Source: Pseudomonadota bacterium
GTDB lineage: Bacteria > Pseudomonadota > Alphaproteobacteria > Acetobacterales > Acetobacteraceae
DNA length: 15,378 bases
Direction: 5' to 3'
NCBI GenBank assembly: GCA_021829055.1
Contig: JAJZCS010000020.1
Location: forward strand, 1 to 15,378
A model generated the notes under the pieces. The model saw nothing but the letters and a program-made list of their open reading frames with translations. It was not told the DNA's origin and searched no databases. How positions within the stretch are numbered: position 1 is the first letter of the stretch; each line of letters begins with the position of its first letter. This document shows positions 1 to 14,016 of the stretch, one piece after another. The position numbers were made by a program, and so were the translations under genes.

Positions 1-11
1 AGCCCTCACGC

Positions 12-29
12 TTGAGATATAATTCTCAA
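12..29 (+). promoter_or_regulatory. -10 box inside an inverted repeat, leaderless promoter of the Nudix gene
   Basis: A perfect TATAAT lies at 18-23, exactly in the centre of an inverted repeat TTGAGA-N6-TCTCAA (12-29). The ATG of the Nudix gene is at 32, only 8 bases after the -10 box, so transcription would start at or within a base or two of the ATG. There is no room for a ribosome binding site, so the mRNA is probably leaderless. The dyad over the -10 could be an operator. The -35 would fall at or beyond the left edge and cannot be judged. Confidence 0.5.
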
Positions 30-31
30 TC

Positions 32-487
32 ATGGCAGATCATCCCCTCGTGCGTGTAGGCGTCGGCGTATTCGTCTTCAAAGACGGCATGTTTCTTTTC
101 GGCCAGCGCAAGAACGCACATGGGGACGGCACCTGGTCGGTCCCCGGCGGCCATCTTGAGTTTGGTGAATCATTGCAGGACACCGCGCGGCGTGAGGTTG
201 AGGAAGAGACCGGCGTCGCAATTAAAAATATACGCTTTGGCGCGCTCACCAATGATCGCTTTCCCACTGAAGGCAAGCACTACATTACCATATGGATGTT
301 GAGCGATTTCGCTGGCGGCAGTCCGCAGATCCGAGAGCCGGATAAATTCGTCGAGCTTCGCTGGGTGAGTTTTGATAACCTCCCTGAGCCGCTATTCCTC
401 CCGTGGCACCAGTTACTTGCGTCAGAGTTCATCGATGCGATACGAAACGAGTGCGCTTGCTCGATAGTAAGCCGCCCTAGGACTTGA
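32..487 (+). CDS. Nudix hydrolase, NUDT15/MutT-like nucleotide diphosphatase
   Basis: A 151-residue Nudix protein, predicted cytosolic, that would hydrolyse a nucleoside triphosphate or related diphosphate with Mg2+. The full Nudix box GX5EX7REUXEEXGU is present at residues 40-62 (G40, E46, R54-E55, E57-E58, G61). The flanking GTWSVPGGHLEFGES segment and the later KHYITIW segment resemble the NUDT15/MTH2 branch, whose members remove oxidized or noncanonical nucleotides. Substrate specificity cannot be read from sequence. The length is normal for a single-domain Nudix enzyme. The ATG at 32 sits 8 bases after a TATAAT, suggesting a leaderless message. The stop codon (485-487) lies inside the 26-bp repeat that recurs at 3625-3650, so the gene's 3' end may have been set by an insertion event. 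The last residues (SIVSRPRT) may therefore not be ancestral. Confidence 0.9.
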   Translation: MADHPLVRVGVGVFVFKDGMFLFGQRKNAHGDGTWSVPGGHLEFGESLQDTARREVEEETGVAIKNIRFGALTNDRFPTEGKHYITIWMLSDFAGGSPQIREPDKFVELRWVSFDNLPEPLFLPWHQLLASEFIDAIRNECACSIVSRPRT

Positions 488-505
488 GGGACTTCGGGGA
501 CTTCA
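480..505. repeat. 26-bp direct repeat, left copy (R1)
   Basis: Identical over 26 bp to 3625-3650, 3145 bp away in the same orientation. Internally it is a 9-nt periodic sequence: GGACTT three times, separated by GAG and CGG. On the plus strand it contains the Nudix stop codon. On the minus strand its first three bases (503-505) are the stop codon of the recombinase-tail remnant. The right copy has the same relation to the intact recombinase. This fits a target or recombination boundary, but an ordinary dispersed intergenic repeat is possible. Confidence 0.8.
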
Positions 506-667
506 GGCAACCATTACGGCATCGCCGTTGTCGTTCGCGGGGCGTTTGAGCGGCTCGCGCCGCTCTGTATCGGCATCCGTCATGAGAATGGCGAGTGCTT
601 CGCGCGCAAAAGCTCGAATACCATCCCGAGAAGGGTCACACGGCAAGTTTTGTGTCGTAATACGAGT
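503..667 (-). pseudogene. C-terminal remnant of a second large serine recombinase
   Basis: Read on the minus strand, the bases before the TGA at 503-505 encode an open stretch of 54 codons. It contains CDPSRDG-I-R-x-F-x-R, ends in AxxRPANDN...MVA, and is preceded by an in-frame TAG at 668-670. This aligns end to end with the C-terminus of the intact recombinase at 3648-5219 (CDPSRDG-S-R-x-F-x-R, then RAANDD...MAA), with a one-codon length difference. At the DNA level 610-640 matches 3758-3788 at 28 of 31 positions. There is no catalytic domain, zinc ribbon or start codon, so this is a dead fragment of a related but not identical recombinase gene. It keeps the same 26-bp sequence over its stop codon. 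It marks where a recombinase module was truncated, or where an insertion at a recombinase 3' end split off the old tail. Confidence 0.75.
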
Positions 668-682
668 CTAAACCTGGTGCGT

Positions 683-721
683 GACCCGACGGCGAGTCGG
701 GTCGGTGCGCTAAGCGCGCAC
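683..721. terminator. Two adjacent hairpins at the break point of the recombinase remnant
   Basis: The first hairpin has perfect 8-bp arms GACCCGAC/GTCGGGTC around a 5-nt loop (683-703). The second has 6-bp arms GTGCGC/GCGCAC around 5 nt (705-721). Neither is followed by a T run on either strand, so they are weak candidates for intrinsic terminators. They fall between the small ORF that ends at 721 and the recombinase remnant, where the body of the recombinase is missing. They could be attenuating structures or traces of the deletion or insertion junction. Confidence 0.4.
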
Positions 722-945
722 TAGAGTGTCAGGCGGTCGCTCGCGCCCCGGCTACGAACCGGGCCACTAAACGGCACGCCATAGAGAATCCGATTCACGA
801 GTCCATCGAACTGGTCGATGTTCTTCTCGACGGCGGTAACCAGTCCGTAGAGGTCGTCGAGACAGACCTGCAGGTTCTCCTCAATCTCCTTGCGGTGGAC
901 ATCGTCGGTGAGGCGGATAAGTCCGAGCGCTTTGTTGTTGTGCAT
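721..945 (-). CDS. Small hypothetical protein (74 aa) behind a recombinase-type promoter
   Basis: I do not recognise this protein. It has 74 residues, with a charged, probably helical middle (VHRKEIEENL ... VEKNIDQFDGLVNRIL, about residues 16-54). The arginine- and serine-rich tail looks noncoding-like and may be a read-through end. No clear ribosome binding site precedes the ATG at 943-945. The main support is position: promoter-like site 1016-1044 points at it, exactly as the matching site at 5462-5504 points at the 66-codon gene upstream of the intact recombinase. It would then be the counterpart small gene of the decayed left module. Similarity between the two small proteins is weak (RKEIEENL against REEARANL). 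A 12-codon ORF also begins on the minus strand near 990. The gene may be real, decayed or spurious. Confidence 0.4.
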   Translation of the reverse strand: MHNNKALGLIRLTDDVHRKEIEENLQVCLDDLYGLVTAVEKNIDQFDGLVNRILYGVPFSGPVRSRGASDRLTL

Positions 946-1015
946 AGGCGGAATGCTATGGGTTTGTAATGATCGGCCGACCGCTAGCCATCATCGACGG
1001 TCGCAAACAATCGCG

Positions 1016-1044
1016 CTAGGCGGCACTTTTTGACCGCGAGTCAA
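1016..1044 (-). promoter_or_regulatory. Shared promoter/operator site A (minus strand)
   Basis: On the minus strand TTGACT (1039-1044) is followed after 17 bp by GCCTAG (1016-1021). TTGAC and GTCAA form an inverted repeat with a 5-bp spacer (1030-1044). The outer arm CTAGGCGGC (1016-1024) lies 13 bp from the dyad centre at 1037. The same arrangement, with the same distances, occurs at 5462-5504 and 6900-6928. It points toward the small ORF at 721-945, 70 bases away. The promoter reading rests on the good -35 and the spacing; the -10 (GCCTAG) is far from TATAAT. Confidence 0.6.
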
Positions 1045-1078
1045 ACTCTTCCTCGTTATAAGATCTTAATCTTTCCAC

Positions 1079-2071
1079 TTAACGGGCAATGTCGCCGATG
1101 TAGTAACCGCCGAACTCATCAGAGAAAAACGTCTCGCTATAAAATCTTTCAGCAAACACTCTGTTTGTAACGTAGAGGGACATTGGCTTTGTGCTCGTGT
1201 CGACAATCATGCTGCCCGCTTGGTTGTTGGTTATGAATGGGAGGTCGCGACTGTTCCAAGCATCATATGCGAGATGTTCAGACCTCGCGTTCCCAAAAAA
1301 TGTAATAGTCGGATTTACGACATCCAAAAACGCATAATCTCTCTCCGAGTCCCTTCCATGATGAGGCGCAATGAGAATATCAACGTCCTTAATATCGTCG
1401 GCATGCTTTTTGAGAACGTGCTCCCAACTACTGTCATGCGAGTCGCCCGCGAGCAAGATACGCCCCCCTTTGCTTCGATAGAGAAGGACATACGACGCAT
1501 CGTTATGTTCTCCTGACGCGTTCGCGTCAGCGAGTAGGCGCTTTGTAGGCGCCAGGATATGCAGACCATCGTGCCCGCTTCCTTCCTTTTTTGGATCATT
1601 GTAATAATGCCCCTTCCCACCGGAAAATAAGCAGAGCCGTTTGGGATCGCTACCCGATCCTTCGTCCCGTAATTTCTTGTAGAACTTCCAATCCTCCTCT
1701 TTATAGCGCCCTCCCTCCTCGAACTCTTTCTCACAGTTGTTATCGCTGTCCCAGAAGTTCGTGGGCGCAAACACTGCGAATAGGGCCCTGATGCCATCCA
1801 TATGATCCATGTCAGGATGCGTCAGTATAAAACGATGGATGGAATCAATGCCCCGGTCGAGCATGTAGTTGATCGGGTTCTCTGGGTACTTTTTTTGATT
1901 GAAATTCCCTAATGCACTGGCGGTGCTTTGGCTGGTTTTTGCGGTTCGTGAACTCGTTGCATCAGCTTCGGCTGAAGCGTTGCAGACGTCGACCACAGTG
2001 ATCCGGCTACTCGCATGTTCAATGATTGAGCAGTCCCCCTCGCATACGTTTAGAAAGTGGAATTTTGTCAT
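1079..2071 (-). CDS. ComEC/Rec2-type metallo-beta-lactamase fold hydrolase (MBL1)
   Basis: A 330-residue stand-alone MBL-fold hydrolase of the ComEC/Rec2 type. Metal-site motifs are visible: THPDMDHMDG at 84-93 (the HxDxDH variant of HxHxDH typical of ComEC-like domains), AGDS at 208-211, and APHHGRDSE at 235-243. There is no signal peptide or membrane segment, so it should act in the cytosol, unlike true ComEC, which has a channel domain. Relatives act on phosphodiester or nucleic-acid-like substrates; the substrate here is unknown. An insert at about 105-180, rich in charged residues and glycine, separates the metal motifs. It is the third gene of a tight operon: its ATG (2069-2071) is 3 bases after the stop of the membrane protein, with only a weak SD (GGTAAAG), so translational coupling is likely. 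The same operon has a second MBL protein. Confidence 0.88.
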   Translation of the reverse strand: MTKFHFLNVCEGDCSIIEHASSRITVVDVCNASAEADATSSRTAKTSQSTASALGNFNQKKYPENPINYMLDRGIDSIHRFILTHPDMDHMDGIRALFAVFAPTNFWDSDNNCEKEFEEGGRYKEEDWKFYKKLRDEGSGSDPKRLCLFSGGKGHYYNDPKKEGSGHDGLHILAPTKRLLADANASGEHNDASYVLLYRSKGGRILLAGDSHDSSWEHVLKKHADDIKDVDILIAPHHGRDSERDYAFLDVVNPTITFFGNARSEHLAYDAWNSRDLPFITNNQAGSMIVDTSTKPMSLYVTNRVFAERFYSETFFSDEFGGYYIGDIAR

Positions 2072-2074
2072 GCT

Positions 2075-2707
2075 TTACCGTGCCGCAGTGAGGGCAAGAA
2101 CCGAGGTAACAAAACGCTCACCATGATGCTTCGCCGATTGACGAACTATGAGGTACTGAGCAATCAGCGCGGCGTCATAAACGGCCGCGGTTAGATGGGA
2201 GACGAGCCACCACATTGCTATGCCACCGATGGCGAGGAAAATTACACTGATCGCAGCATAGTCTCTCGTGAATAGGTATCCCTTATGAACCTGTTGAATG
2301 CGCGGATCAGATTCCGAAGCAAGATATAACTTATACCACCGAGAGTTTTGGTCTTTCGGGCTTGTAGGGAAATCCCCGATTTTTCTGCGAAGTTCGCTAG
2401 TATCAATTCGATCATCCGTGTCTACGTACTCGGAGAATGCTCTCGCGCCGGGCAGGGGATGGTGCCACCTCCAAAAGACAAGACGGGCTTTCCACTTGGC
2501 GTTTAGGAGTTCGACTAGCACGCTCGTAAATACGAATATCGCGCCTGCCGGTAGTGCGTTTACTCCGCTCTTTACCAGCGCCGAGAAACCAGAAATGGCA
2601 ATCGCACCTGATGTCGCGAGCAGATAAAATGCGAGAGCGTTGGCAACAATGATGGCAAGGAGCGGTCTTCGGTTGGCGTCTTTCAGCGATTGATCTTGCA
2701 CGGCCAT
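2075..2707 (-). CDS. Four-helix membrane protein between two MBL hydrolases
   Basis: I do not recognise the family. It has 210 residues with hydrophobic segments at about 15-40, 50-70, 150-171 and 173-190. The soluble stretch at 75-145 contains RLVFWRWHHPLPGARAF, a D-rich segment (YVDTDDRIDTSELRRKIGDFP), then QNSRWYKLYLASESDPRIQQVHKG. The order 2 TM, conserved-looking soluble insert, 2 TM fits a sensor-effector membrane protein rather than a transporter. It is sandwiched between two MBL hydrolase genes with 1-base and 3-base gaps, so the three products are made together and may form a complex at the inner membrane. By analogy with other conflict systems that pair an enzyme with a small multi-TM protein, it could be a membrane-disrupting effector. 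That is inference only. Confidence 0.8.
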   Translation of the reverse strand: MAVQDQSLKDANRRPLLAIIVANALAFYLLATSGAIAISGFSALVKSGVNALPAGAIFVFTSVLVELLNAKWKARLVFWRWHHPLPGARAFSEYVDTDDRIDTSELRRKIGDFPTSPKDQNSRWYKLYLASESDPRIQQVHKGYLFTRDYAAISVIFLAIGGIAMWWLVSHLTAAVYDAALIAQYLIVRQSAKHHGERFVTSVLALTAAR

Positions 2708-2708
2708 A

Positions 2709-3563
2709 TCAGAGGGTCCGGTAAATGCGTCCGTTGCCCGGCGCTAATTGCACCCAAATATGTCCGTCATTCCTAGTTGTTAGCACTTTGCGACGCTGCA
2801 CAGTTGGTGCGCTAACAAGAGTGACACCGTCGCCACGGGTCCGAGATGCATACGCCTGCGCCATTCCTTCTTGCGTACCGTGCACAATAGCCTTATCAGA
2901 AAGAATCACGCATTCCGGTTTGCAAAACCCGAATATCTCTTCGGCATGACCGTTTTCTCGCCCGTGATGGGCCGCCACGAGGATGTCGGTGGATTGCAGC
3001 CAGCTCCGAAAATTTACGTTTTGCAGCATACGTTCCCACCCGGCCTTTTCCAGGTCTCCACACACACATATCGTCGAACCACCATACTGGACGAATATGA
3101 CCTGGCTAAGGTTGTTTGTGTCCCATTGCTCCCCAAGGAACTGATTCTTGGTCAGGCTAAATGGCACAATCCTGTAGGGCGGCGCGTAGTTTTGAACGGT
3201 GCCTGTATAGGTATTTTTCAGGTAGCACAGATGCTCAAGCGCCTCCGTTTTTTCTGGCTTAATAGCCAGAAGCTCTGATGCCGACACGTTGGGTGCCAAG
3301 AATGTCGTTGCTATATGAACGCGGCTCCGCAAGTACGGAAGACCAGAAAAGTGGTCATGGTCATAGTTCGTCAATGCCAAATTGCGGAGAACATATCTGC
3401 CTGTCGGGTCAATGGGCAGTAACTTCCACTGAATAACGAGATCAATCGGATTAAAGTCCGACGTATTGCCGCAGTCGATGAGCATCCCATATTCGGGTGC
3501 TCCCTGCGGGTAAACAAATATGCTTTGCCCGTGTTCAACATTGAAAACTATAATATCCAACAT
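2709..3563 (-). CDS. ComEC/Rec2-type metallo-beta-lactamase fold hydrolase (MBL2)
   Basis: A 284-residue soluble MBL-fold protein, first gene of the MBL operon. Motifs are TNYDHDHFSG (65-74), CGD (168-170) and AAHHGRENG (197-205); an early FNVEHGQSIF...GMLIDCGN segment is typical of the ComEC/Rec2-like N-terminus. The usual first ligand position (H in THPD) is N66 here, so metal binding may differ from MBL1. The ATG at 3561-3563 is chosen because GAGG (minus strand) lies 8 bases upstream. An in-frame GTG at 3570-3572 would overlap that ribosome binding site. It is the only operon member with a proper SD. The stop is 1 base from the start of the membrane protein. The two MBL proteins share the HHGR motif but are otherwise strongly diverged, so this is not a recent tandem duplication. 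It could be a regulatory or partner subunit for MBL1. Confidence 0.86.
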   Translation of the reverse strand: MLDIIVFNVEHGQSIFVYPQGAPEYGMLIDCGNTSDFNPIDLVIQWKLLPIDPTGRYVLRNLALTNYDHDHFSGLPYLRSRVHIATTFLAPNVSASELLAIKPEKTEALEHLCYLKNTYTGTVQNYAPPYRIVPFSLTKNQFLGEQWDTNNLSQVIFVQYGGSTICVCGDLEKAGWERMLQNVNFRSWLQSTDILVAAHHGRENGHAEEIFGFCKPECVILSDKAIVHGTQEGMAQAYASRTRGDGVTLVSAPTVQRRKVLTTRNDGHIWVQLAPGNGRIYRTL

Positions 3564-3586
3564 AGAAAGCACCTCGGCTTCGGAAC

Positions 3587-3615
3587 ATAATATTCCAAGT
3601 AAAGGCGACGGGCAA
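3587..3615 (-). promoter_or_regulatory. Promoter of the MBL operon
   Basis: On the minus strand TTGCCC (3610-3615) and TATTAT (3587-3592) are separated by exactly 17 bp. Transcription would begin near 3580, giving a leader of about 18 bases that contains the GAGG site before the ATG at 3563. The operon therefore has its own sigma70-type promoter just after the recombinase stop and is not dependent on read-through. It does not share the TTGACT/GCCTAG design of the recombinase promoters. Confidence 0.65.
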
Positions 3616-3624
3616 TGCGGTTGG

Positions 3625-3650
3625 GGACTTGAGGGACTTCGGGGACTTCA
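3625..3650. repeat. 26-bp direct repeat, right copy (R2)
   Basis: Identical to 480-505. Its last three bases (3648-3650) are the stop codon of the intact recombinase on the minus strand. Outside the 26 bp, identity continues only as diverged homology into the recombinase tail (best at 3758-3788 against 610-640). The two copies bracket the MBL operon, site A, the small ORF and the recombinase remnant. Confidence 0.8.
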
Positions 3651-5219
3651 TGCGGCCATATATGTGCCGGCTTCATCGTCGTTGGCGGCGCGTTCGCGCG
3701 CCTCACGGCATTCTTTCTCTGCATTCGCTTTGAAGATTTCGAACACGTTGCGGATAAAAGTTCGACTACCATCCCGAGACGGGTCACAATTCCAGGATGA
3801 CGTCAAATTCGCGAGCTCCGAAAACGGAGAGCGCAGCGCAATTGCTATCTTTTTTCCGGTCACCGTCGAGTTCGAACACGTCGCGTGCACCAATTCGCGC
3901 TTTTCGACGGGATTCGCGATTTCATAGCGTAACGATGCGGATTCTGCGAGTTCGAGCGAACGCATAAGGACGTCATGGGTGCTGTGCGCAGTATCGAGCG
4001 ATTCGAGCGCCTCGACGATATAGCGCTTCTCGGCCAAGAGCGCAGCGCGCCTTTCCTCGTATCCCTCCTTATCGATCAAGCAGTCGATCAATGCATCCGT
4101 GAGGCGCGCCAAGCGCGCGTCGAAATTCCCAAGCTTGAGTCTAAGGCTCTGCTCGCGCTTCGCGCGTTCGGCGGACTCGTCGCCCTTTAGCCTCTCTACC
4201 ATGTCCCTCAAGTCCCTGAAGTCCTCGGGCGCGAACCGGAACCGCGCCAGCGCGTCGCCGATCTCGGCGTCAAGCTTGGCTTCCGAAATGCAGGTGCCTG
4301 CACAGGTCGGTGCATGGCAACGATAATAGATGTACCGGCCCTTCTGCTTCTCACCGATGAGATGTTTGCCACAGCCGCCACAACGAACCATCTGCTTGAA
4401 TACGAAATCGTAGCGCAGCGGCACTGTGCCCGCGCGGCGTCCGCGCAGGACCAATTGAACCGCGTCATAGAGCGCCCTGGAAATGAGCGGCTCGTGGACG
4501 CCCTCGAAGCTCTCGCGCGTTTTGCGGAGCTGTATGAGCCCCGTGTAGAAGGGGTTGTTCAGGATTGTGGTTAGGCCTGCCTTGCTGATGGGCCGGTTGG
4601 AATAGCTGTGCAGACCGCGGCGGCGCATCTCGGCCTGCAGCGTGTCGAAGTTCCACTCGCCGGTGGCATAGAGCTCAAAGGTAGCGCGGACCAAGGGTCC
4701 CTGGACCGGATCGATCTCCTTGGCCTTGCCGCGGCCCATGTCGCGATAGCCAATCGGTGCACGCAGAGGATACAGGCCCTGCTTCAGGCGCCCGTAAAAT
4801 CCCTTGCGGGTTTCCTCGCGCAGATTGCGGATAAAGTCTGCTGCGACGACTGCCTGGATGTCCGCGGAGAGGCGTCCGCCGCGAGAGCGTAGGTCAAGAG
4901 CGTCGTGTGCGAAGTGGACCTCGATGCCGCGGTCGATCAGTTCGGCGAGTTCGGCCCAGTCCTTGAGGTTACGAGCGCCGCGGTCGATCTTGTGAATGAT
5001 GATGCCGCTTGCCTTGCCGTGGGCTAGCTTCTTGAGAACTTCGGAGAAAACGTGCCGGCCGCGCTTGGCGGCGGTGACCCGCTCCTCGTACCAAGCGCTT
5101 ATTGTCAGTCCCTGGCGCTGGGCATAGCGCTCAATGGCGGCCCGCTGCTCCTGCAGCGAGACGCCCTGTGTGCCTTGGCGCTGGGTTGAAACGCGGATGT
5201 ATCCGAGATAGGTGCGCAT
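3648..5219 (-). CDS. Large serine recombinase (site-specific integrase/resolvase family)
   Basis: A 523-residue serine recombinase that would cut and rejoin DNA at attachment sites through a phosphoserine link. The resolvase domain spans about 4-145, with nucleophile S11 in YIRVSTQRQ and the KIDRGARNLKDW segment at 77-88. A recombinase domain follows at about 150-260 (GLYPLRAPIGY; NRPISKAGLTTILNNPFYTGLI). A zinc ribbon spans about 280-310 (C280, C283, C301, C306, C310), then a charged helical region at about 330-430, likely the coiled coil. The length is normal for this class and all key residues are visible, so it should be active. A 66-codon gene starts upstream and ends 9 bases before it, forming one transcript driven from the dyad at 5462-5504. 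The ATG is weakly preceded by an SD, so coupling is likely. It is the probable mobility enzyme of the island; its att sites are not identified. Confidence 0.93.
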   Translation of the reverse strand: MRTYLGYIRVSTQRQGTQGVSLQEQRAAIERYAQRQGLTISAWYEERVTAAKRGRHVFSEVLKKLAHGKASGIIIHKIDRGARNLKDWAELAELIDRGIEVHFAHDALDLRSRGGRLSADIQAVVAADFIRNLREETRKGFYGRLKQGLYPLRAPIGYRDMGRGKAKEIDPVQGPLVRATFELYATGEWNFDTLQAEMRRRGLHSYSNRPISKAGLTTILNNPFYTGLIQLRKTRESFEGVHEPLISRALYDAVQLVLRGRRAGTVPLRYDFVFKQMVRCGGCGKHLIGEKQKGRYIYYRCHAPTCAGTCISEAKLDAEIGDALARFRFAPEDFRDLRDMVERLKGDESAERAKREQSLRLKLGNFDARLARLTDALIDCLIDKEGYEERRAALLAEKRYIVEALESLDTAHSTHDVLMRSLELAESASLRYEIANPVEKRELVHATCSNSTVTGKKIAIALRSPFSELANLTSSWNCDPSRDGSRTFIRNVFEIFKANAEKECREARERAANDDEAGTYMAA

Positions 5220-5228
5220 GGTGGTCTA

Positions 5229-5429
5229 CTAGAGTCGCGATTTTACCGAATCATCGGCCGACGCGCGAATCGGGATTTGAGATATCGCCTCCTCGACTTC
5301 GCGCTCCGCAATCCGGAGCATCACCGCCATGAAGGCCGTGAGATTGGCGCGCGCCTCTTCACGCGCGGCCCCTTCGGCGCCGGGCATGGTGCGATCCAGA
5401 ATATCGTCGCCGGGCTTGCGTTCGGACAT
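5229..5429 (-). CDS. Small hypothetical protein upstream of the recombinase
   Basis: A 66-residue acidic, alanine-rich protein beginning MSERKPGDDILDRTMPGAEG, followed by a predicted long helix (AAREEARANL...AEREVEEAISQ, about 21-50). No known catalytic motif is visible. It ends 9 bases before the recombinase start and begins 32 bases downstream of the minus-strand promoter in the dyad at 5462-5504, so the two genes form an operon. A small helical protein encoded just ahead of a recombinase could be an accessory or directionality factor, or an autoregulator; this is inference from position. No good SD is seen before the ATG at 5427-5429. Confidence 0.65.
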   Translation of the reverse strand: MSERKPGDDILDRTMPGAEGAAREEARANLTAFMAVMLRIAEREVEEAISQIPIRASADDSVKSRL

Positions 5430-5461
5430 AGGTCAAGGCTTGCACCTCGATGGTGATCGGA

Positions 5462-5504
5462 CTAGGCGGCGGTTATCGACCCTCGGTCGAATTCTGCCGC
5501 CTAG
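5462..5504. promoter_or_regulatory. 43-bp dyad with overlapping divergent promoters (site B)
   Basis: Outer arms CTAGGCGGC (5462-5470) and GCCGCCTAG (5496-5504) and inner arms TCGACC (5476-5481) and GGTCGA (5485-5490) are perfectly symmetric about base 5483, with 5-bp spacers and a 3-bp centre. Read to the right, TCGACC-N17-GCCTAG points at the ATPase gene, whose ATG follows after 31 bases. Read to the left, TCGACC-N17-GCCTAG points at the small gene and recombinase, whose ATG follows after 32 bases. The two -35 regions overlap, so the promoters should exclude each other, and a dimeric regulator on the inner dyad would cover both. Confidence 0.72.
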
Positions 5505-5535
5505 CGCGTGAGCCGATGCGGCCTATCGTTTAGGG

Positions 5536-6843
5536 ATGACAAACCACAAGGAGAAGCCGAGCCAGAACGTCCCCACCGTCTCGCGTGTCGAAGGCGATAC
5601 GCTTGTCGAGCTGGTCTATGACCGGGACAAGCGAAAGACGGGCCTCATCGTCTCGCGCTTCGGTGGCCTCTGGAATCTTGAGCAGGAACTCTCGCTCGGA
5701 AGTGGCGAAACACTGGTGCCATATTCGGCGGCGAACAATCTCATCGCCAAGGATTATGTGCTCCTGCCATCCACGCCTGTCGAGTATGGCTTCAAGCACG
5801 AGCTCGTCGCGGACATCAGCGCCCATCTCAGACGCTATGTGGACCTGTCGCCACGCTTCGAAACTATCGCGGCCTACTACGTGCTCCTGACCTGGGTCTA
5901 CGACGCGTTTACGGAAGTACCTTACCTGCGGCTCAAGGGCGACTACGGCACAGGTAAGACCCGTGCGCTGATGGTGATCGGCTCGCTCTGCTACAAGGCG
6001 TTCTTCGCCTCTGGGGCGAGCACGGTGTCGCCGATTTTCCATGTGCTCGACAGTTTTGGCGGGACGCTCATCCTCGACGAGGCCGATCTCCCTTTCAGCG
6101 ACGCTAAGGCCGAGCTGGTGAAGATTTTGAACAACGGGACCACGGCCGGCATGCCGGTGCTGCGTACGCTGCAGAACCGGCACAAGGAATTCAGCCCCTA
6201 CGCCTTCAAGGTGTTTGGTCCAAAGATCGTGGCGACGCGTGAACGCTTCGAGGATCACGCCCTCGAAAGCCGTTTCCTTACCGAAGAGACGGGCCTCAAG
6301 GATGTGCGTGCCGATATCCCCATCCACCTTCCGCCCGAAGCCAAGACCGAGGCGCTTGCGTTGCGCAATCGGTTGCTGCATTTCCGGCTATGTGAGTTCT
6401 TCAAGATCAAGGCCGATTCGTCGGCGCTCATCCCCGGTGTTGGGCCTCGCCTCAACCAGATGGCGTTGCCGCTTCTGAGCCTGATCGACGATCCTGCCGT
6501 TCGTGACGATATTCGCCGCATGCTCGAAGAGCAGAGCGCGGCCGAACTCTTGGACCGGCAAGAGAGCGTCCAGGGCGCTGTGCTCGCCGCAGTTGTCGCG
6601 GTGATCCAGCGCGCGCCAGGCGGCGCTATCGCGGTGCGGGACATCGCCGCCCAGTTCAACGCCGATCACTGTTCCGACTTCGGAGGTCCGGTGTCCAATC
6701 GTTGGGTGGGACACATGCTGCGCACGCGATTGGGCGCCAAGACGCGGAAGAGCAGCGGCATCTATGTTCTGCGCGAAGAGGAGCCGAAGCGGCTCGTCGC
6801 CTTGGCGTCGCGTTACGGAATCCCCGTTACGACGCCCGAATAG
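5536..6843 (+). CDS. P-loop ATPase with C-terminal helix-turn-helix-like region, mobile-element type
   Basis: A 435-residue ATPase. The Walker A motif is GDYGTGKT (135-142) and Walker B is TLILDEAD (177-184); a following segment (NNGTTAG...FGPKIVATRERF, about 198-236) contains sensor-like residues. Mobile elements often carry such proteins, related to DUF927/DUF3631-type helicase or primase ATPases, to support replication or processing. The helicase role is inferred. The N-terminus (1-100) has no clear domain, and residues about 345-420 look like a winged helix (GAIAVRDIAAQFN...SNRWVGHMLRTRLGA). It is first in a plus-strand block with XRE, RuvC-like and ArdC-like genes, driven from the dyad at 5462-5504. 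The region just before the ATG has only a weak AGGG motif touching the start. Confidence 0.75.
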   Translation: MTNHKEKPSQNVPTVSRVEGDTLVELVYDRDKRKTGLIVSRFGGLWNLEQELSLGSGETLVPYSAANNLIAKDYVLLPSTPVEYGFKHELVADISAHLRRYVDLSPRFETIAAYYVLLTWVYDAFTEVPYLRLKGDYGTGKTRALMVIGSLCYKAFFASGASTVSPIFHVLDSFGGTLILDEADLPFSDAKAELVKILNNGTTAGMPVLRTLQNRHKEFSPYAFKVFGPKIVATRERFEDHALESRFLTEETGLKDVRADIPIHLPPEAKTEALALRNRLLHFRLCEFFKIKADSSALIPGVGPRLNQMALPLLSLIDDPAVRDDIRRMLEEQSAAELLDRQESVQGAVLAAVVAVIQRAPGGAIAVRDIAAQFNADHCSDFGGPVSNRWVGHMLRTRLGAKTRKSSGIYVLREEEPKRLVALASRYGIPVTTPE

Positions 6844-6899
6844 AGCCGCCCCCACTGCTCGGCGATCTCCAGCCCGTTCCGCGTTATCCCCAACTCGAC

Positions 6900-6928
6900 T
6901 TGACTGGGCGTCAAAATCTGCCGCCTAG
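6900..6928 (+). promoter_or_regulatory. Shared promoter/operator site C, upstream of the XRE gene
   Basis: TTGACT (6900-6905), 17 bp, GCCTAG (6923-6928). TTGAC/GTCAA form an inverted repeat with a 5-bp spacer centred at 6907, and the outer arm GCCGCCTAG begins 13 bp from that centre, as in the sites at 1016 and 5462. The XRE start follows 47 bases later. Only the arm on the side of the transcribed gene is conserved, as at site A; the divergent site B has both arms. Autoregulation by the XRE protein is plausible. A small hairpin CCCGG-ATCA-CCGGG (6961-6974) sits directly before the first start codon. Confidence 0.65.
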
Positions 6929-6975
6929 CCTGAAATCCTGAAGCTGTAATCCTGGTTAGGCCCGGATCACCGGGT

Positions 6976-7332
6976 GTGCATCTTATGCCGCGCCTCCGAC
7001 TGTCGAACTATCTGAGGACCGAGCGCTTGCGTTCGGGCCTTAGCCAGCGTGAATTCGGGGAACTGATGGGTCTCAGCGGGAGCCGCGTTGCGCTTGCCGA
7101 ATCCGATCAACGTGCCCAGAGCATCCGAGTCGTGTTGATGGCGGAGATCATCTTCGGCAGGCCACACCGAGAGCTCTTCCCGGAATTGGTCGAGAGCATG
7201 GAGGACGCCATCCTGTTACGGGCGGCCGCTATAGAAATCCGTTTGTCCACGCGCACGGACCCTGTCTCCAAGCGCAAGCGCGCGCATCTGAATGCACTGA
7301 TTAACCGCCTGCAATTTCATCTACCATCATGA
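6976..7332 (+). CDS. XRE-family helix-turn-helix transcriptional regulator
   Basis: A 118-residue DNA-binding protein with a Cro/C1-type HTH at about residues 8-45: LSNYLRTERLRSGLSQREF, then GELMGLSGSRVALAESDQR. The rest (about 60-118) is helical and unassigned, ending KRKRAHLNALINRLQFHLPS. Two starts are possible: GTG at 6976, right after a CCCGG/CCGGG hairpin, or ATG at 6985; neither has a clear SD. The gene follows promoter site C and its stop overlaps the next ATG by 4 bases (ATGA at 7329-7332), so it is coupled to the RuvC-like gene. It is the best candidate for the regulator that binds the three shared dyads. That is inferred from location, not shown. Confidence 0.82.
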   Translation: MHLMPRLRLSNYLRTERLRSGLSQREFGELMGLSGSRVALAESDQRAQSIRVVLMAEIIFGRPHRELFPELVESMEDAILLRAAAIEIRLSTRTDPVSKRKRAHLNALINRLQFHLPS

Positions 7333-7859
7333 CCAAGACCGTCATTGCCGCCGCGCCCCCTGGTCTCGTTTTAGCAGTCCATGTGAGCACGTTCGGGTTC
7401 GGTTGGGTGTTGTTCGAGACGCCGCGACGGGTTGTGAGCTGGGCATTGGTTCGCGAGCGCGCGGGCCACGACGCCAAGCTACTTCAGAGCTTCAAGCGCC
7501 TAATCGAGCGATACGAGCCTGCGGTTCTTGCGGTCGAGGCATTCGAGGACGGAGAGAGCCGCCGGCGCCCGCGCATCCAGAAGCTCTACCGGGCCATGAT
7601 TGGAGAAGCCAACGCCGCACAAATAGGAACGCGCGTCTTTGACCGCGACGTCATACGGGCCGCCTTCGTCCACTTCGGTGCCCAGACGCGAGGCGAGATC
7701 GCTCGCGTCATCGCAGATCGAATCGATAGCTTTGGCCACCGGCTGCCCGGCAATCGCGAGGTCTGGAATACGCTCGATCCGCGCCAGAGCCTGTTCGATG
7801 CCGCGGCAATCGCCGTCACCTATTTCGTGGCCATGGGTGAGCTCGATCCTTGGGATTAG
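7329..7859 (+). CDS. RuvC/RNase H-fold protein with altered first acidic residue
   Basis: A 176-residue protein whose order of motifs fits the RuvC-like RNase H fold. The first strand is LAVHVSTFGFGWVLFE (15-30), a second strand ends in LAVEAFE (67-73), and a C-terminal helix carries SLFDAAAIAVTYF (154-166). RuvC resolvases have Asp in the first strand (IDPG-like); here the matching position is H18, while E70 and D157 are kept. The enzyme may use another metal arrangement or bind DNA without cutting. If active, the substrate would be branched or recombining DNA of the element. It overlaps the XRE gene by 4 bases and precedes the ArdC-like gene, from which it is separated by a hairpin-rich 73-base gap. 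Confidence 0.68.
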   Translation: MTKTVIAAAPPGLVLAVHVSTFGFGWVLFETPRRVVSWALVRERAGHDAKLLQSFKRLIERYEPAVLAVEAFEDGESRRRPRIQKLYRAMIGEANAAQIGTRVFDRDVIRAAFVHFGAQTRGEIARVIADRIDSFGHRLPGNREVWNTLDPRQSLFDAAAIAVTYFVAMGELDPWD

Positions 7860-7867
7860 CCCTCGCC

Positions 7868-7914
7868 CTGCCTCGCCGGCAGGCGGGAGCGTCGGAATGG
7901 TCCGGCGCTCCCGC
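7868..7914 (+). promoter_or_regulatory. Two RNA hairpins in the leader of the ArdC-like gene
   Basis: The first hairpin is CTGCC/GGCAG with a 5-nt loop (7868-7882). The second has 14-bp arms, GCGGGAGCGTCGGA (7883-7896) and TCCGGCGCTCCCGC (7901-7914), with a 4-nt loop ATGG and one G-U wobble. It ends 6 bases before the strong SD GAGGAGG (7921-7927). No T run follows. It could reduce read-through, protect the downstream mRNA end after processing, or regulate translation of the downstream gene. Confidence 0.5.
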
Positions 7915-7932
7915 GCTGCCGAGGAGGCATCA

Positions 7933-8847
7933 ATGCAAAACAATGTTCTTTCCAGAAAGGATGTCTTCGCCACCATAACGGACAAGATCGTCGCGGCAAT
8001 CGAAGCCGGCGCAGACGAATTCCGCATGCCCTGGCATGGCGGCATCTTGCCGCCGGAATTCCCAGTTAACGCCGCGACGGGCAAGCCGTATCGCGGGGTA
8101 AATGTCGTCTCGCTCTGGGCTGAAGCCATGCTCGGCCGCTACGTCTCCGGCCATTGGGCGTCCTACAAGCAATGGCAGAACCTCGGGGCCCAGGTGCGCA
8201 AGGGCTCCCGCGGCGCGCCCATCGTCTTCTACAAGCCCGTGGAATCAGAGCAGGAAGAAGGCGAACTGGACGACGTGGACGCGACCTATGCACCGCGCTA
8301 CATCGCCCGGCTCAGCTATGTCTTCAATGCCGATCAGGTCGATGGCTGGACCCCGCCCATGCCGGAATCCAAGACCATCGTCGAGCTCAACGAAGAGGTT
8401 GCGGCCTTCATTGCTAGGATCGGCGCCGACATCCACCATGGCTCGCATCGGGCTTGCTACCGGCGCGATCTCGACTGTATCGAGATGCCGGAGCCGAGGG
8501 CGTTCATCGGCACGAGCACCAGCTCACCCACCGAGGCCTATCATTCGGTCCTGCTCCACGAGATGGTGCATTGGTCGGGGGCGCCGCAGCGGCTCGACCG
8601 CGCATTCGGCAAGCGCTTCGGCGACGAAGCCTATGCCTTCGAGGAACTGATTGCAGAGTTGGGCGCAGCCTTCCTCTGTTCGGCATTCCGGATCGTCATA
8701 GAGCCGAGAGCGGATCACGCCGCCTACATAGCGACTTGGTTGAGCGTGCTTAGCCGGGATCACCGGGCGATCCTCTCAGCCGCAAGAATGGCGCGCGAAG
8801 CTGTAGAGTATTTGACGACCGTGTCCGCCTTTCACCATCAAGGCTAA
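7933..8847 (+). CDS. ArdC-like antirestriction protein with zincin domain
   Basis: A 304-residue protein with the two-part ArdC layout. An N-terminal ssDNA-binding domain (about 5-140) carries MPWH, NAATGKPYRGVNVVSLW, GHWASYKQW and VRKGSRG. A C-terminal zincin metallopeptidase domain has HEMVHW (209-214; ligands H209 and H213, catalytic E210) and a downstream EELIAELGAAFLC that supplies the third ligand. ArdC proteins are known to protect incoming plasmid DNA from restriction, which fits a conjugative element. The ATG at 7933 is chosen for its strong SD GAGGAGG 5 bases upstream; the same frame stays open back to 7639 but that part overlaps the RuvC-like gene. The hairpins before it suggest separate control. 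A hairpin with 7-bp arms follows at 8869-8887. Confidence 0.92.
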   Translation: MQNNVLSRKDVFATITDKIVAAIEAGADEFRMPWHGGILPPEFPVNAATGKPYRGVNVVSLWAEAMLGRYVSGHWASYKQWQNLGAQVRKGSRGAPIVFYKPVESEQEEGELDDVDATYAPRYIARLSYVFNADQVDGWTPPMPESKTIVELNEEVAAFIARIGADIHHGSHRACYRRDLDCIEMPEPRAFIGTSTSSPTEAYHSVLLHEMVHWSGAPQRLDRAFGKRFGDEAYAFEELIAELGAAFLCSAFRIVIEPRADHAAYIATWLSVLSRDHRAILSAARMAREAVEYLTTVSAFHHQG

Positions 8848-8868
8848 GTTCAGCTCACGCAGCACTGG

Positions 8869-8887
8869 ACCCCGGTACAACCGGGGT
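8869..8887 (+). terminator. Hairpin after the ArdC-like gene
   Basis: The arms ACCCCGG and CCGGGGT are perfect 7-bp complements around TACAA, 21 bases after the ArdC stop codon. Only CTT follows, not a T run, so termination would be weak or factor-dependent. Position makes it the likely end of the backbone operon. Confidence 0.5.
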
Positions 8888-9055
8888 CTTCAGCACGAGT
8901 GCCGTCCGGCGAAGGTTTGAGGTTACCATCTTTACCTCACCTACTCCGAGGTTCCTCCAACTGCCCGGCGGGTGCGCGGGTTGGCGCCAACTACCTCAAA
9001 TGACGGCAATAAGTTGCCTTCGCTGACCCGACCGGTTCAGCCATCGGGAGTCTTG

Positions 9056-9091
9056 AGAGGCTGTCGCGACTTCGCGGTCGCGACAGCCTCT
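9056..9091. terminator. Perfect 15-bp-stem hairpin upstream of cargo island 2
   Basis: The arms AGAGGCTGTCGCGAC (9056-9070) and GTCGCGACAGCCTCT (9077-9091) pair without mismatch around a 6-nt loop TTCGCG. No T run follows on either strand. It lies 17 bases before the -35 of the cargo promoter, so it could insulate the cargo from backbone transcription. A symmetric DNA recombination or protein-binding site is the alternative. Confidence 0.5.
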
Positions 9092-9108
9092 GGAACGAAC
9101 AGCCGAAC

Positions 9109-9137
9109 TTGCCGTAGGACAAGAAAATCCCTATAAT
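9109..9137 (+). promoter_or_regulatory. Promoter of the methyltransferase-like gene
   Basis: TTGCCG (9109-9114), exactly 17 bp, then a perfect TATAAT (9132-9137). Transcription would start near 9144, leaving a leader of about 40 bases before the ATG at 9184. It is the strongest sigma70-type promoter in the window and should drive both plus-strand genes of the island. Confidence 0.7.
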
Positions 9138-9183
9138 TTCAAGGTATTGAACTGCGCTGCCCACCCTTAGCAGGACACTCTGT

Positions 9184-9954
9184 ATGGCAATCTCACAGCC
9201 GTTGACCAGAAACGTGAATGAGAAGGTACTCTTACGTGAGGATGCGCCATTTTTGAAATTAGGTAAGGCGGTTGTAAAAGTGGCGCGCTCAAGTCCGCGC
9301 TGGTCATCCTTTATCCGAAATTCGGCTCAAGCTCGCAGCAGGTTGGAGGTGCTACGCACCTGTCAGGGCCTAGGCGCCATACCGGAAGCGCTGTTGGAGG
9401 ACTTCAACGATGCGTACTACCTTAGAAATCTCATTAAGTGTAGCTACGTAACCAGCGTTGTGCTTCCGCTACTCCCAAGATCGCTCCTGCACCCCTATTT
9501 CGATGTTGGAGCCGGCCTAGGAACATTCACTCATGCGATTTCCTCGCGTCTCCATGACGACTCAATTCGATTTGTGCTCCTGGACAGATCATGCGACCAG
9601 CTAAAGAGAGCCGATGCCCTGACCGGTGCATTGAATCTGCAAGGGAGCTTCTCGTTCGAAGTCGGAGAGGTCGGCATCGCTAGCATATCCCGCTTGCGCG
9701 AGGGCTTTTTGCTCGCGTCCTACAGCCTCTGCGAACTGAGCGCCCAGCATTTTGCATCCGATCTGATACCGTCAGCAATGGGCGCAGCAATTGTAGATTA
9801 TCCAGAGATCATCGAATCCATAGTCGTCGCGGCGATGAAACGAGAACGTGCTGTCATACACGATTTTGTGGAGCTAGAGTTGCCGTCTTCGATTTCAGGT
9901 ATCATAGGCCAGGAAAGAATTAAGGTGGCATATGCCATCGTACTCCCAAGTTGA
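9184..9954 (+). CDS. SAM-dependent methyltransferase-fold protein, Rsm22-like features
   Basis: A 256-residue class I methyltransferase-fold protein. Motif I is FDVGAGLGTF (106-115), the acidic end of strand 2 is VLLDRS (131-136), and strand 4 reads LLASYSLCELS (176-186). The last resembles the A-x-Y/H-x-L-x-E-L motif of Rsm22-type proteins, which act on or near ribosomal small subunits. No cysteine pair or zinc ribbon typical of full Rsm22 is visible, and the first 80 residues are unassigned. It is predicted cytosolic; the substrate is unknown. It starts an operon: the next gene's ATG (9932) lies inside its end, overlapping by 23 bases. It has its own TATAAT promoter. Tight coupling to a membrane-bound kinase fusion suggests a role as modifier, sensor or antidote in a conflict system rather than housekeeping. 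Confidence 0.68.
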   Translation: MAISQPLTRNVNEKVLLREDAPFLKLGKAVVKVARSSPRWSSFIRNSAQARSRLEVLRTCQGLGAIPEALLEDFNDAYYLRNLIKCSYVTSVVLPLLPRSLLHPYFDVGAGLGTFTHAISSRLHDDSIRFVLLDRSCDQLKRADALTGALNLQGSFSFEVGEVGIASISRLREGFLLASYSLCELSAQHFASDLIPSAMGAAIVDYPEIIESIVVAAMKRERAVIHDFVELELPSSISGIIGQERIKVAYAIVLPS

Positions 9955-11686
9955 CCTAGTCACGAAGTACTTCAGCGCCTGGCAGCATCATGATAGCGCG
10001 CTGCTACGAAGCATCATGGCTGGAGACATCCAATATGAAAGATCTGGCAAGAGCCCAATCCTCGGGATTGAGGCATTGGAATCGTATTGGAAGCGAAATT
10101 CGGATCGGCAAGAGGACCTCATCGTATACCCAAGCATCTCCGAGGTAAGACAAGATGCCATTGAAGCGATGTTCGTTGCCCAATTTTTTAGTTCGAAGGA
10201 GAAGGACTTTCAGACGGTTTTTGGGACAATCCGCTTTTTCTTCGACCCGGCGCAGCCTGGGCGCATCATACGCATCTGGGAAAAGTACGCCGTTAAGCGT
10301 GGTCGCGTCCCTGGACGAACGCTTAGAAAGCTAGGTCAGTGGGGGGTTCGTCGGTATAGACTCGCTCACGCGAGGCTTCTGAGATGGCGCGCTAGGACCG
10401 CTAACGCTCTTCGGGCAACTGGCCGATGGGCTCTGGTAGCGATGGTGGCGGCATTTGCAGCTTCGGCCATATTTTCCTTTTATCTCGATGGTCACCCACT
10501 TCCTCGGTTTATGGCGTCGGCTTGGGGAATCCTCTTTTCTCCGCTCGCTGGGACACCGGCGGAGCAAGCAGGACAAATCCATGCTCGCATCGCAGATTTC
10601 GTCAACGTCGTCGGAGCGTTCGGAGGAATCATAGCGCTCATCCTCTGGCCTCGGAGAGATGACGATGTTGAACTGTTTGACCTTCCCGACTTGGATCGCC
10701 AGCTGAAGGTAATGAATGATTTTATGAAGCGGTCTACGACCAGGCAGGTGGTGATCTTTTCGGGGGATTTCGACTTTCTCGGAAAGCACGACGGTCTATT
10801 CGAAACGCTTTCCGATTTAGCAACGCGTGATCGCCTCACCTTGGTAAGCGACCGTAGCGCAGAAGTCGTCAAGACGGCATCAGGTGATTCTCCACGCGTC
10901 CTCGAACTTCTCGAAAATCTGAGCCTCTCCGGTCGCATTGCGTTCGACAGTGGCCTAACGGACGTTCGATGCTCTTTGATACGAGATGAACTCGACAATG
11001 TCATTCTTTGCAAGGCTACCGTTGACAACTTGCAGCGAACGTGTGCGATCCATAATCGCGGACGCACGGAAAAGGTAGTGGAGGCGTTCGCAAGTGTCGT
11101 CGATGATGTAGTCCGTCGGACGCCCGTGTCGCGCATGTTCGGTGGCGATCGACGTTCCGTAGCGGTTATTGTCACTGGTGAGACGAAGTCTGGAAAATCG
11201 GAACTGGTCAAGCGAATAGCAGAGCAAGGATTTCACAAAATCAGTGCCGGGCGGGAGATCGCAGAGTTGTTGCCCCCGGGGCCTGATTACCCAACGCGAA
11301 GGCAATTGCTGGACAAAGGTGCCGAATTTCTATCTCCGGATGGGCAAAAGAAGTTCGGGGAAATCCTCCTTGGGCGAAGTTGGGGTTTCGAGCGCGTTGT
11401 CTTTGACGGTGTCAGGCTGCCTGGGAGCATCGACGAGATCAAAAGGGCTCTCGGGACTGCGTTCGTCGTATATGTTGAGGCGGACCCTGCGGTAAGACGC
11501 GAGCGGTACGAAGAAAGTTCTGATGGCTCGATTAGCTTCGAGGAAGTGAATGTTCATCCAGTTGAACGATGCGTAACCGAAATACGGAGACAAAACGACG
11601 TGGTCCTCGACGGCACCAAAGGCGTAGGGGAGAATGTGGCACACGTCATGCGGGAGATAGCGGCGAAGTACGAACTTGGAAACTAG
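9932..11686 (+). CDS. Multidomain fusion: NTF2/SnoaL-like, membrane region, PLD-like domain, P-loop kinase
   Basis: A 584-residue fusion I do not recognise as a whole. Residues 1-120 look like an NTF2/SnoaL-like fold (VDLVTKYFSAWQHHD; GTIRFFFDPAQ; IIRIWEKY). A basic stretch (122-165) leads to hydrophobic segments at about 166-186 and 224-240, with a third weak one near 192-207. Residues 270-395 (VVIFSGDFDFLGKHDGLF...LATRDRLTLVSD...CAIHNRGRTEKVVEAF) resemble an inactive PLD-like sensor domain, with no HKD motif. Residues 408-580 form a P-loop kinase with Walker A GETKSGKS (416-423), VVFDGVRLPG (489-498) and VYVEADPAVRRERY (513-526), like adenylate- or deoxynucleotide monophosphate-kinase families. 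The ATG at 9932 has a good SD (AAGGTGG) inside the preceding gene. Its stop is 1 base from the convergent stop of the next gene. A membrane-anchored nucleotide sensor or kinase is the likely role. Confidence 0.7.
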   Translation: MPSYSQVDLVTKYFSAWQHHDSALLRSIMAGDIQYERSGKSPILGIEALESYWKRNSDRQEDLIVYPSISEVRQDAIEAMFVAQFFSSKEKDFQTVFGTIRFFFDPAQPGRIIRIWEKYAVKRGRVPGRTLRKLGQWGVRRYRLAHARLLRWRARTANALRATGRWALVAMVAAFAASAIFSFYLDGHPLPRFMASAWGILFSPLAGTPAEQAGQIHARIADFVNVVGAFGGIIALILWPRRDDDVELFDLPDLDRQLKVMNDFMKRSTTRQVVIFSGDFDFLGKHDGLFETLSDLATRDRLTLVSDRSAEVVKTASGDSPRVLELLENLSLSGRIAFDSGLTDVRCSLIRDELDNVILCKATVDNLQRTCAIHNRGRTEKVVEAFASVVDDVVRRTPVSRMFGGDRRSVAVIVTGETKSGKSELVKRIAEQGFHKISAGREIAELLPPGPDYPTRRQLLDKGAEFLSPDGQKKFGEILLGRSWGFERVVFDGVRLPGSIDEIKRALGTAFVVYVEADPAVRRERYEESSDGSISFEEVNVHPVERCVTEIRRQNDVVLDGTKGVGENVAHVMREIAAKYELGN

Positions 11687-11687
11687 C

Positions 11688-13127: not shown

Positions 13128-13323
13128 TGAGCGCCCGAGTTTCAAAGAACCACGGTTCTAATTTGGCGGGCCGATCCAAAATCGCCGCGCTAAACTCACC
13201 ATCCATTTGCTCGAATATGTTCTTCAATATCAGCCAGGCCTGAATAACAAACGCCCGCTTCCCAAAGTTGGGGAAATACTTCTCCCCTTGCAGGCTGAAC
13301 CCGAGCGACTTGGAGGCTTCCAT
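13078..13323 (-). CDS. Small ORF, probable downstream part of a frame-split gene
   Basis: 81 codons starting at ATG 13321-13323, reading protein-like: SLGFSLQGEKYFPNFGKR, AFVIQAWLILKNIFEQMDGE, then ILDRPAKLEPWFFETRAL. No domain is recognised. It lies in the frame one base off from the upstream ORF (13196-13438), which it overlaps by 128 bases, and it overlaps the next gene's ATG (13127) by 50 bases. The frame is closed by TAA five codons before its ATG; AAGAAG is the only SD-like element. Either it is a separate coupled gene, or it is the second half of one protein whose reading frame is broken by a +1 shift near 13324-13340. Confidence 0.5.
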   Translation of the reverse strand: MEASKSLGFSLQGEKYFPNFGKRAFVIQAWLILKNIFEQMDGEFSAAILDRPAKLEPWFFETRALNADTNANRIGRNFWCP

Positions 13324-13438
13324 TGAAGCGCTTCTTTAGCATGGAAATTGCTACTTGGTCCTCACTGCTTTCCTCTAGCGCGACCAATAGACGAAGAACC
13401 ATGGTCGCGTGGACCGCATGCCGCACTTTCTTTCCCAT
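13196..13438 (-). CDS. Small ORF, probable start of a frame-split gene
   Basis: 80 codons from the ATG at 13436-13438, which has GGAG 6-7 bases upstream (13445-13448). The first part, MGKKVRHAVHATMVLRLLVA, then LEESSEDQVAISMLKKRFNG, looks coding; from about 13325 on (VARVQPARGEVF...) it looks out of frame, while the alternative frame (13078-13323) becomes protein-like there. The simplest reading is a single gene of about 118 codons with a one-base shift, natural or from sequencing. Programmed frameshifting is possible, but I see no classic slippery heptamer. It heads the minus-strand transcript leading to the deoxyribosyltransferase-like gene. Confidence 0.42.
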   Translation of the reverse strand: MGKKVRHAVHATMVLRLLVALEESSEDQVAISMLKKRFNGSLQVARVQPARGEVFPQLWEAGVCYSGLADIEEHIRANGW

Positions 13439-13718
13439 TAGCTTCTCCAAGTGTGAACAAATGAAGAACGTAGCGCTGCACGATGGCAAAGCAAGTTAAA
13501 CGGGGCCAGCCATCCACCGGAAGAGGGTGAGCCACTATATCTTGTGGATGCGCTTACTTCGTCCGCTATGAAGCCCTTCGAAAGGTAAAGAATCTGTAAA
13601 TTGGCCTCCTCTTTCGGATCGGCTCGGGCGTGCTGGTCGCTGTTTTGCCCATTGTGCTGCACGTCGACTCTAAGCCGTGAGGGCAATAGGATTTATTGCT
13701 CACCGGTGCGTCTCAACC

Positions 13719-13734
13719 GGAGCGTCGACGCTCC
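13719..13734. promoter_or_regulatory. 16-bp perfect palindrome ahead of the AlpA-like gene
   Basis: GGAGCGTC followed directly by GACGCTCC (13719-13734), ending 18 bases before the ATG. A second palindrome, CACCGGTG, lies at 13702-13709. Either could be the operator for an AlpA-type regulator, or an RNA hairpin in the leader. No convincing -35/-10 pair was found nearby. Confidence 0.4.
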
Positions 13735-13752
13735 CTATCACGGGAGTGTTCG

Positions 13753-13974: not shown

Positions 13975-13980
13975 GGGCAT

Positions 13981-14016
13981 GAAGAGGACCGGCGGCCGCC
14001 GGTCCTCTTCTCTTTT
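13981..14016 (+). terminator. Strong intrinsic terminator after the AlpA-like gene
   Basis: A 30-bp perfect palindrome (13981-14010): GAAGAGGACCGGCGG followed by its exact complement, then TCTTTT (14011-14016). Six bases separate it from the AlpA stop codon. On the minus strand the palindrome is not followed by a T run, so it works mainly in the plus direction. Confidence 0.8.

Follow-up and report, generated by a model that had tools for sequence, protein, structure and literature searches.

A probable E1-free, double-MBL variant of the conflict module that joins a ComEC-type metallo-beta-lactamase to a small four-helix membrane protein

Background

Several catalogued entries concern a metallo-beta-lactamase (MBL) or a small membrane protein. 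The anti-phage system 6A-MBL (NCBIfam NF058523/NF058524), the PADLOC phage-defence candidate PDC-M48 (PDC-M48A plus PDC-M48B) and Csx27, an accessory protein of type VI-B1 CRISPR systems, are separate entries in the libraries used here. A comparative study of 2019, reportedly by Makarova et al., is said to have dealt with operons whose competence component is a ComEC-like MBL. According to the summaries in two articles, this study assigned Csx27 to a family of membrane proteins whose genes accompany those for competence components, ubiquitin-type components and WYL proteins, and proposed that such operons transport or degrade single-stranded DNA (PMC7642515, PMC8209922). A survey of 2006 listed E2-E1-JAB together with an MBL as its row 6a (PMC1779556). 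The MBL domain of ComEC itself is a Mn-dependent DNA endo- and exonuclease (PMC12455585, PMC8579336), in which Ser728 of the motif HHGS aids substrate handling (PMC12455585), and has been described as extracellular (PMC8579336). Here, we analysed a stretch of 15,378 nucleotides from an alphaproteobacterium of the Acetobacteraceae (GCA_021829055.1, contig JAJZCS010000020.1, positions 1 to 15,378; "the window"), which contains an operon of two ComEC-type MBL genes (MBL-A, MBL-B) around a gene for a four-helix membrane protein (4TM). The operon is probably an E1-free, double-MBL variant of a conflict module combining a ComEC-type MBL with a small four-helix membrane protein, in the neighbourhood of PDC-M48 and 6A-MBL and perhaps of the Csx27 superfamily. 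It is a new arrangement of a catalogued but little-tested suspected anti-virus system and not an entirely new system. A literature search found no paper naming "6A-MBL" or "PDC-M48", and no experimental paper on a system of MBL and 4TM was among the matches listed.

Results

An earlier sequence-only reading of the window had described an operon of three genes with gaps of 1 and 3 bases. This is confirmed, and the open reading frames have 287, 210 and 330 residues:

2709..3572, minus strand: MBL-A, ComEC-type MBL of the NxDxDH + HHGR subfamily
2075..2707, minus strand: 4TM, four-helix membrane protein with conserved insert (residues 68-134)
1079..2071, minus strand: MBL-B, ComEC-type MBL of the HxDxDH + HHGR subfamily

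Because the homologues in the MBL-A subfamily alignment (A2) point to the internal ATG at 3563, MBL-A probably starts there, with 284 residues, rather than at 3572. By their sequences, both enzymes classify as ComEC-type MBLs. NYDHDH and HHGR in MBL-A and HPDMDH and HHGR in MBL-B are present as that reading had noted, and the alignments mark these motifs as subfamily signatures: all 21 rows of A2 have NxDxDH with HHGR, and all 26 rows of the MBL-B alignment (A3) have HxDxDH with HHGR, two of them in the form HxExDH. The conserved, Asn-substituted subfamily represented by MBL-A is new here. MBL-A matches the PDC-M48B model PDLC04674 (E 5.5e-37) and MBL-B the PDC-M48B model PDLC04673 (E 1.1e-35), while the Pfam lactamase models match both below threshold only. 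ComEC is the closest solved sequence for both enzymes (the A3 profile recovers it from the PDB at 4e-8), and its MBL domain is the best PDB match of the predicted MBL-A structure. Thus, the ComEC-type fold and motif II HxDxDH with HHG are found at the locus. However, the window MBLs are free-standing, lack the OB fold and the competence channel, and have HHGR in the alignment columns in which ComEC has HHGS; the Arg of HHGR is invariant in both subfamilies. MBL-B also matches PHROG 7043, labelled tail protein (9.3e-14), and a similar MBL domain is therefore present in a large phage protein.

The third gene had been read as a four-segment membrane protein with an insert holding PLPGARAF and QNSRWY, and this description agrees with the AlphaFold 2 model (pLDDT 91.9, pTM 0.86), in which four long helices (residues 13-31, 48-67, 135-168, and 171-209) enclose an insert at 68-134, although simple hydropathy gives three membrane segments. 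No family model matched 4TM in the four libraries searched (including Pfam, PADLOC, and NCBIfam), no solved fold stands out against its model, and the phage collection searched contains no match. A search of 5.8 billion proteins yielded 66 related proteins including 4TM itself. The resulting alignment (A1) of 62 rows combines the window sequence with 61 of these proteins, leaving out its own copy (P0001) and four short ones. Twelve of its 15 invariant positions are located within the insert. Positions conserved to at least 90% comprise 21 of 67 in the insert, 0 of 19 in helix 1, 0 of 20 in helix 2, 4 of 34 in helix 3, and 7 of 39 in helix 4. With conservation concentrated in the insert and no such position in the first two helices, 4TM looks more like an anchor that has a docking face than like a selective channel.

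Loci of 4TM relatives (L numbers) were taken from 14 genome contigs, two viral contigs (L016, L084), 12 plasmid records fetched from 21 that matched, and three sampled genomes. After dropping repeats of one place (L001, L029-L033, L048) 31 loci were left, and 30 without L014, which ends inside the gene. The 28 informative loci exclude the window, which is the seed and is present as L002, and L084, to which its MBL had led. Neighbours were accepted within 6 kb at 25 bits for M48B-type MBLs, 60 bits for 6A-type MBLs, and 20 bits for E1. On this basis an MBL gene of either type accompanies 4TM in 26 of the 28 informative loci, and in 28 of 30 if the window and L084 are counted. The loci range from Proteobacteria to Clostridia and Patescibacteria. 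Of the co-occurrence of three families in order, which the sequence-only reading had proposed as a check, the pairing of MBL and 4TM is borne out. The loci are not all independent. Four of them come from closely related Bradyrhizobium (L003, L004, L011, L017), and some contributed to the MBL profiles themselves: one profile contains rows from the window, L017, L019, L023, and L026, and another contains rows from L005, L010, and L015. Keeping one Bradyrhizobium locus gives 23 of 25. An MBL within 6 kb is missing from L007, which has an E1/JAB fragment only, and from the Rahnella locus L022, in which the start of the plasmid and two IS4 transposases separate 4TM from an MBL-A relative. Chance neighbourhood was considered and rejected in view of this pairing and of the partial home genome, in which the MBL-B profile (E 0.001) finds only MBL-B and MBL-A; it finds nothing in 49 relatives.

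The pairing comes in several forms. An M48B-type MBL is encoded within 300 bp of 4TM in 19 of 28 loci (21 of 30), counting L009 and L012 with only 26 and 27 bits, the divergent L026, and the broken genes of L016 and L021. Neither a 6A-type MBL nor E1 accompanies the M48B-type MBL in 14 of 28 loci (16 of 30), among which L009 is near a contig end. A 6A-type MBL is present within 6 kb in 11 of 30 loci, nine of them with an E1 profile match (L020 and L024 are decayed). Both types occur together in four of 30 (L008, L015, L019, L023), for example in Clostridium magnum (L015), where the genes are ordered MBL-B type, 4TM, 6A-MBL, and E2-E1-JAB. The window/L002 and L006 from Omnitrophota are the loci in which two M48B-type MBL genes flank a single 4TM and E1 is lacking; such an E1-free arrangement of two unlike MBLs is new here. 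WYL-domain regulator genes adjoin 4TM or 6A operons in L018, L024, L025, L027, L039, L079, and L080, the one of A. soli (L025) lying 3 bases before 4TM. Some loci have defence genes nearby (type I restriction and Hachiman in L028, type I restriction in L041, an AbiEii-type gene in L017), counted without a background.

MBLs of these types are also found beside other small membrane proteins. Searching plasmids with tblastn gave six records for MBL-B and seven for MBL-A, and eight new stretches were fetched. In six of these (L036, L038, L039, L041, L042, L043) a small protein with three or four hydrophobic segments adjoins the MBL, and the A1 profile picks up none of the six (E no better than 0.03). 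The membrane partner of the MBL is swapped between loci. From six MBL-side membrane proteins of plasmids and 6A loci we built the profile A4, and from twelve profile hits A5. Comparing A1 with the six sequences gave a weak relation (36.8%, 3.6e-4), but with the twelve of A5 94.7% and E 6.4e-8 were reached, against 0.028-0.033 for reversed alignments and 0.0045 for the best of 60 block shuffles. The A4 profile hits seven of 398 sampled genomes of the phylum, each with an adjoining MBL (six M48B-type, one of them divergent, and one 6A-type). G048, G188, and G237 had supplied rows to A4 and G218 had been fetched as a 6A locus, leaving only G044, G387, and G389 as independent hits (three of three with MBL). 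A 6A protein of the E2-E1-JAB kind scores over the cut-off in five of the 398 genomes (loci L079, L080, L081, L044, and L047), and a membrane gene of these families lies beside each one, of the A1 family in G276 and of the A4/A5 family in G048, G188, G218, and G237. This presence of a 4TM-type gene at all five loci is new here. Three of them (L079, L080, L047) have a further M48B-type MBL, and none of the five membrane proteins reaches the cut-off of an NCBIfam model.

Concerning Csx27, 4TM resembles the superfamily (about 200 residues, four predicted membrane segments) in its 210 residues and four long helices. The operon company is partly shared, with MBLs in the window, and E1 and WYL genes in 4TM relatives only. 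A direct match is lacking, as 4TM does not hit the Csx27 models of PADLOC or NCBIfam, and Cas13b was not recognised at the window. What exists is a chain of profiles with weak intermediates, from A1 over A5, its short subgroup (L081, L097, L038), and the L042 membrane protein to Csx27. L042 matches Csx27 in PADLOC (7.1e-7) and, below the cut-off, in NCBIfam (4.3e-4; 20.3 of 65 bits), and L081 matches PADLOC Csx27 weakly (0.0036). The E-values of the short subgroup are 5.4e-8 against L042 and 3.7e-8 against the rest of A5, and those of A1 are 2.3e-5 against the rest of A5 and 2.7e-4 against the short subgroup (0.0023 with L042 added). The tie remains a chain because the rest of A5 alone fails to match L042 (0.64) and the whole of A5 reaches only 0.011. 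Relatives of the L042 membrane protein were absent from viral contigs, and plasmids gave only L042 itself.

With respect to PDC-M48, the strong PDC-M48B matches show that the sequence-only reading went too far in knowing no named system of this composition; the module of MBL and membrane protein is real and conserved, but the unnamed composition does not stand. The L042 membrane protein, encoded next to a related MBL, has a PDC-M48A match at 1.5e-4. However, the window 4TM matches no PADLOC model (E 0.1), and the window has two M48B-type MBLs. 4TM as PDC-M48A is not supported: PDLC04672 found nothing in nine related records, and PDLC04670 only the L042 record of eight. We therefore class the operon as a variant of PDC-M48 and not as a member, since an adjacent PDC-M48A protein is lacking. 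6A-MBL is tied to 4TM relatives by the eleven loci above, but the window has no E2-E1-JAB gene and MBL-B scores 48.2 bits with the 6A-MBL enzyme model, far under the cut-off of 220 (MBL-A does not match). The best match to E2-E1-JAB (cap2_3, cut-off 320) in the own genome has 1.5e-13, which is below the cut-off, although absence is unproven in a genome that is 78.5% complete. Avs1a, LmuA, and the RT-associated MBL belong to the same broad class of defence-linked MBLs, but the matches are weak (Avs1a scores 14-21 bits where the cut-off is 420), and none of their partner genes was recognised in the operon.

The families are sparse. The A1 profile hits four of the 398 genomes, the own one included, and one of 291 genomes in the class of Clostridium magnum, namely C. 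magnum. A single-sequence search with MBL-B (E 1e-20) found in the 398 genomes only the own and one other, beside a 6A locus. This distribution suggests accessory genes, as would be expected of a defence or other conflict gene, and is not by itself proof of defence.

The operon lies between a recombinase and a recombinase remnant, as had been noticed before:

3648..5219, minus strand: large serine recombinase upstream of the operon (Pfam Resolvase, Recombinase, Zn_ribbon_recom)
3587..3615, minus strand: promoter-like TTGCCC-N17-TATTAT, present but not above chance
480..640, minus strand: recombinase 3'-end remnant downstream of the operon, 73% identical to 3625-3788

The operon had been credited with its own promoter. 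The sequence exists, but it is no more than chance because shuffles yield 3.5 (sd 2.0) promoter-like sites against four found in the region. Recombinase 3'-end sequence occurs on both sides of the cargo (480-640 and 3625-3788). In L002 (JAJZDZ010000008.1, a metagenome-assembled genome in which the sequence is identical), a tandem duplication covers the operon region (8920-19026) with a period of 5037 bp and 99.94% identity across 5070 bp, all three differences being clustered at the junction within the recombinase 3' end. This is either a recent amplification or an assembly artefact. Because the duplication starts inside the 3'-end repeat, this repeat may mark the exchange site of the element. 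Two similar genes of 74 residues lie near recombinase remnants (window 721-945, minus strand; L002 13625-13849). The window further encodes, at 9184-13145, a methyltransferase-like protein, a protein with a weak SnoaL-like start and an AAA/kinase-like end, and on the other strand a protein of 485 residues without library match, possibly another accessory module. Palindromes are found at 13981-14010 (perfect, 30 bases) and 9056-9091 (89%, 36 bases), and an Rfam scan gave no match above the gathering score.

Discussion

The reading that we favour, tentatively as regards the full mechanism, is a nuclease complex anchored in the inner membrane and directed against incoming DNA. 4TM would reside in the inner membrane, turn its conserved insert towards the cytosol and hold both MBLs at the membrane. 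MBL-B with its full ComEC-type motif II would be a Mn-dependent phosphodiesterase or nuclease, and MBL-A, with Asn for the first His of motif II and the other motif residues retained, could be a partner of modified specificity or a regulatory one. Foreign DNA reaching the membrane by phage injection, conjugation, or transformation would be cut there. Where related loci encode the E2-E1-JAB protein and WYL regulators, these would govern the same core. Several points weigh against this proposal. The exact trio of MBL-A, 4TM, and MBL-B occurs in one species only, and our literature search found no phage or nuclease assay of any family member. HHGR replaces the HHGS that includes Ser728 in ComEC, and the substrate may therefore not be DNA. 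The ComEC domain is described as extracellular, yet the window MBLs have no membrane segment (no signal-peptide predictor was run). Finally, the cytosolic side of the insert is a guess, given its 12 basic and 10 acidic residues.

Abortive infection would be a different use of the same parts. 4TM would then be a putative pore-forming toxin, which the MBLs hold shut or which opens in response to a product that these enzymes generate or do not clear, and infection would lead to depolarisation and growth arrest. An enzyme combined with a small membrane effector is a common plan in defence. Csx28, the other accessory protein of Cas13b, forms a depolarising pore (PMC12669027), and 4TM is tied to Csx27 through the intermediates described. 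However, it is hard to reconcile a pore with helices 1 and 2 that have none of 39 positions conserved at 90%, Csx28 and Csx27 are different families, and we regard the toxin as unlikely. Uptake or processing of DNA instead of defence, with 4TM as the route for single-stranded DNA and an MBL removing one strand, would suit the ComEC type of the enzymes and the 2019 proposal for Csx27 operons (in the summaries cited above), but the same unconserved helices, the sparse distribution with a number of plasmid-borne relatives, and MBLs showing no sign of export (with the limit just given) make it quite improbable. A reading in which the MBLs process a second messenger of nucleotide type or some modified nucleotide instead of DNA, with 4TM as the output, is highly improbable because no nucleotide cyclase or other synthase was recognised in the operon or the scanned neighbours, even if the invariant Arg in place of the Ser of HHGS points to a changed substrate and small-molecule MBL phosphodiesterases (PhnP, tw9814, phosphorylcholine esterase) are among the fold matches of MBL-A.

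Conclusions

The profile link between the membrane proteins and the 4TM-type gene at all five 6A loci suggest that the separate library entries belong to one modular system, whose simplest forms have no ubiquitin-type parts. It is possible, although rather doubtful, that PDC-M48, 6A-MBL, and perhaps Csx27/Cas13b immunity share as their core a ComEC-type MBL bound to a 4TM of the Csx27 superfamily, with ubiquitin-type, WYL, and CRISPR parts as optional controllers. The window would then represent the E1-free class, in which an unequal pair, the Asn-substituted MBL-A and the full-motif MBL-B, shares one anchor and has an HHGR pocket unlike that of ComEC. 4TM or the MBL would be candidate substrates of the bacterial E2-E1-JAB pathway, and the minimal two- and three-gene versions make this pathway testable by showing which parts suffice.

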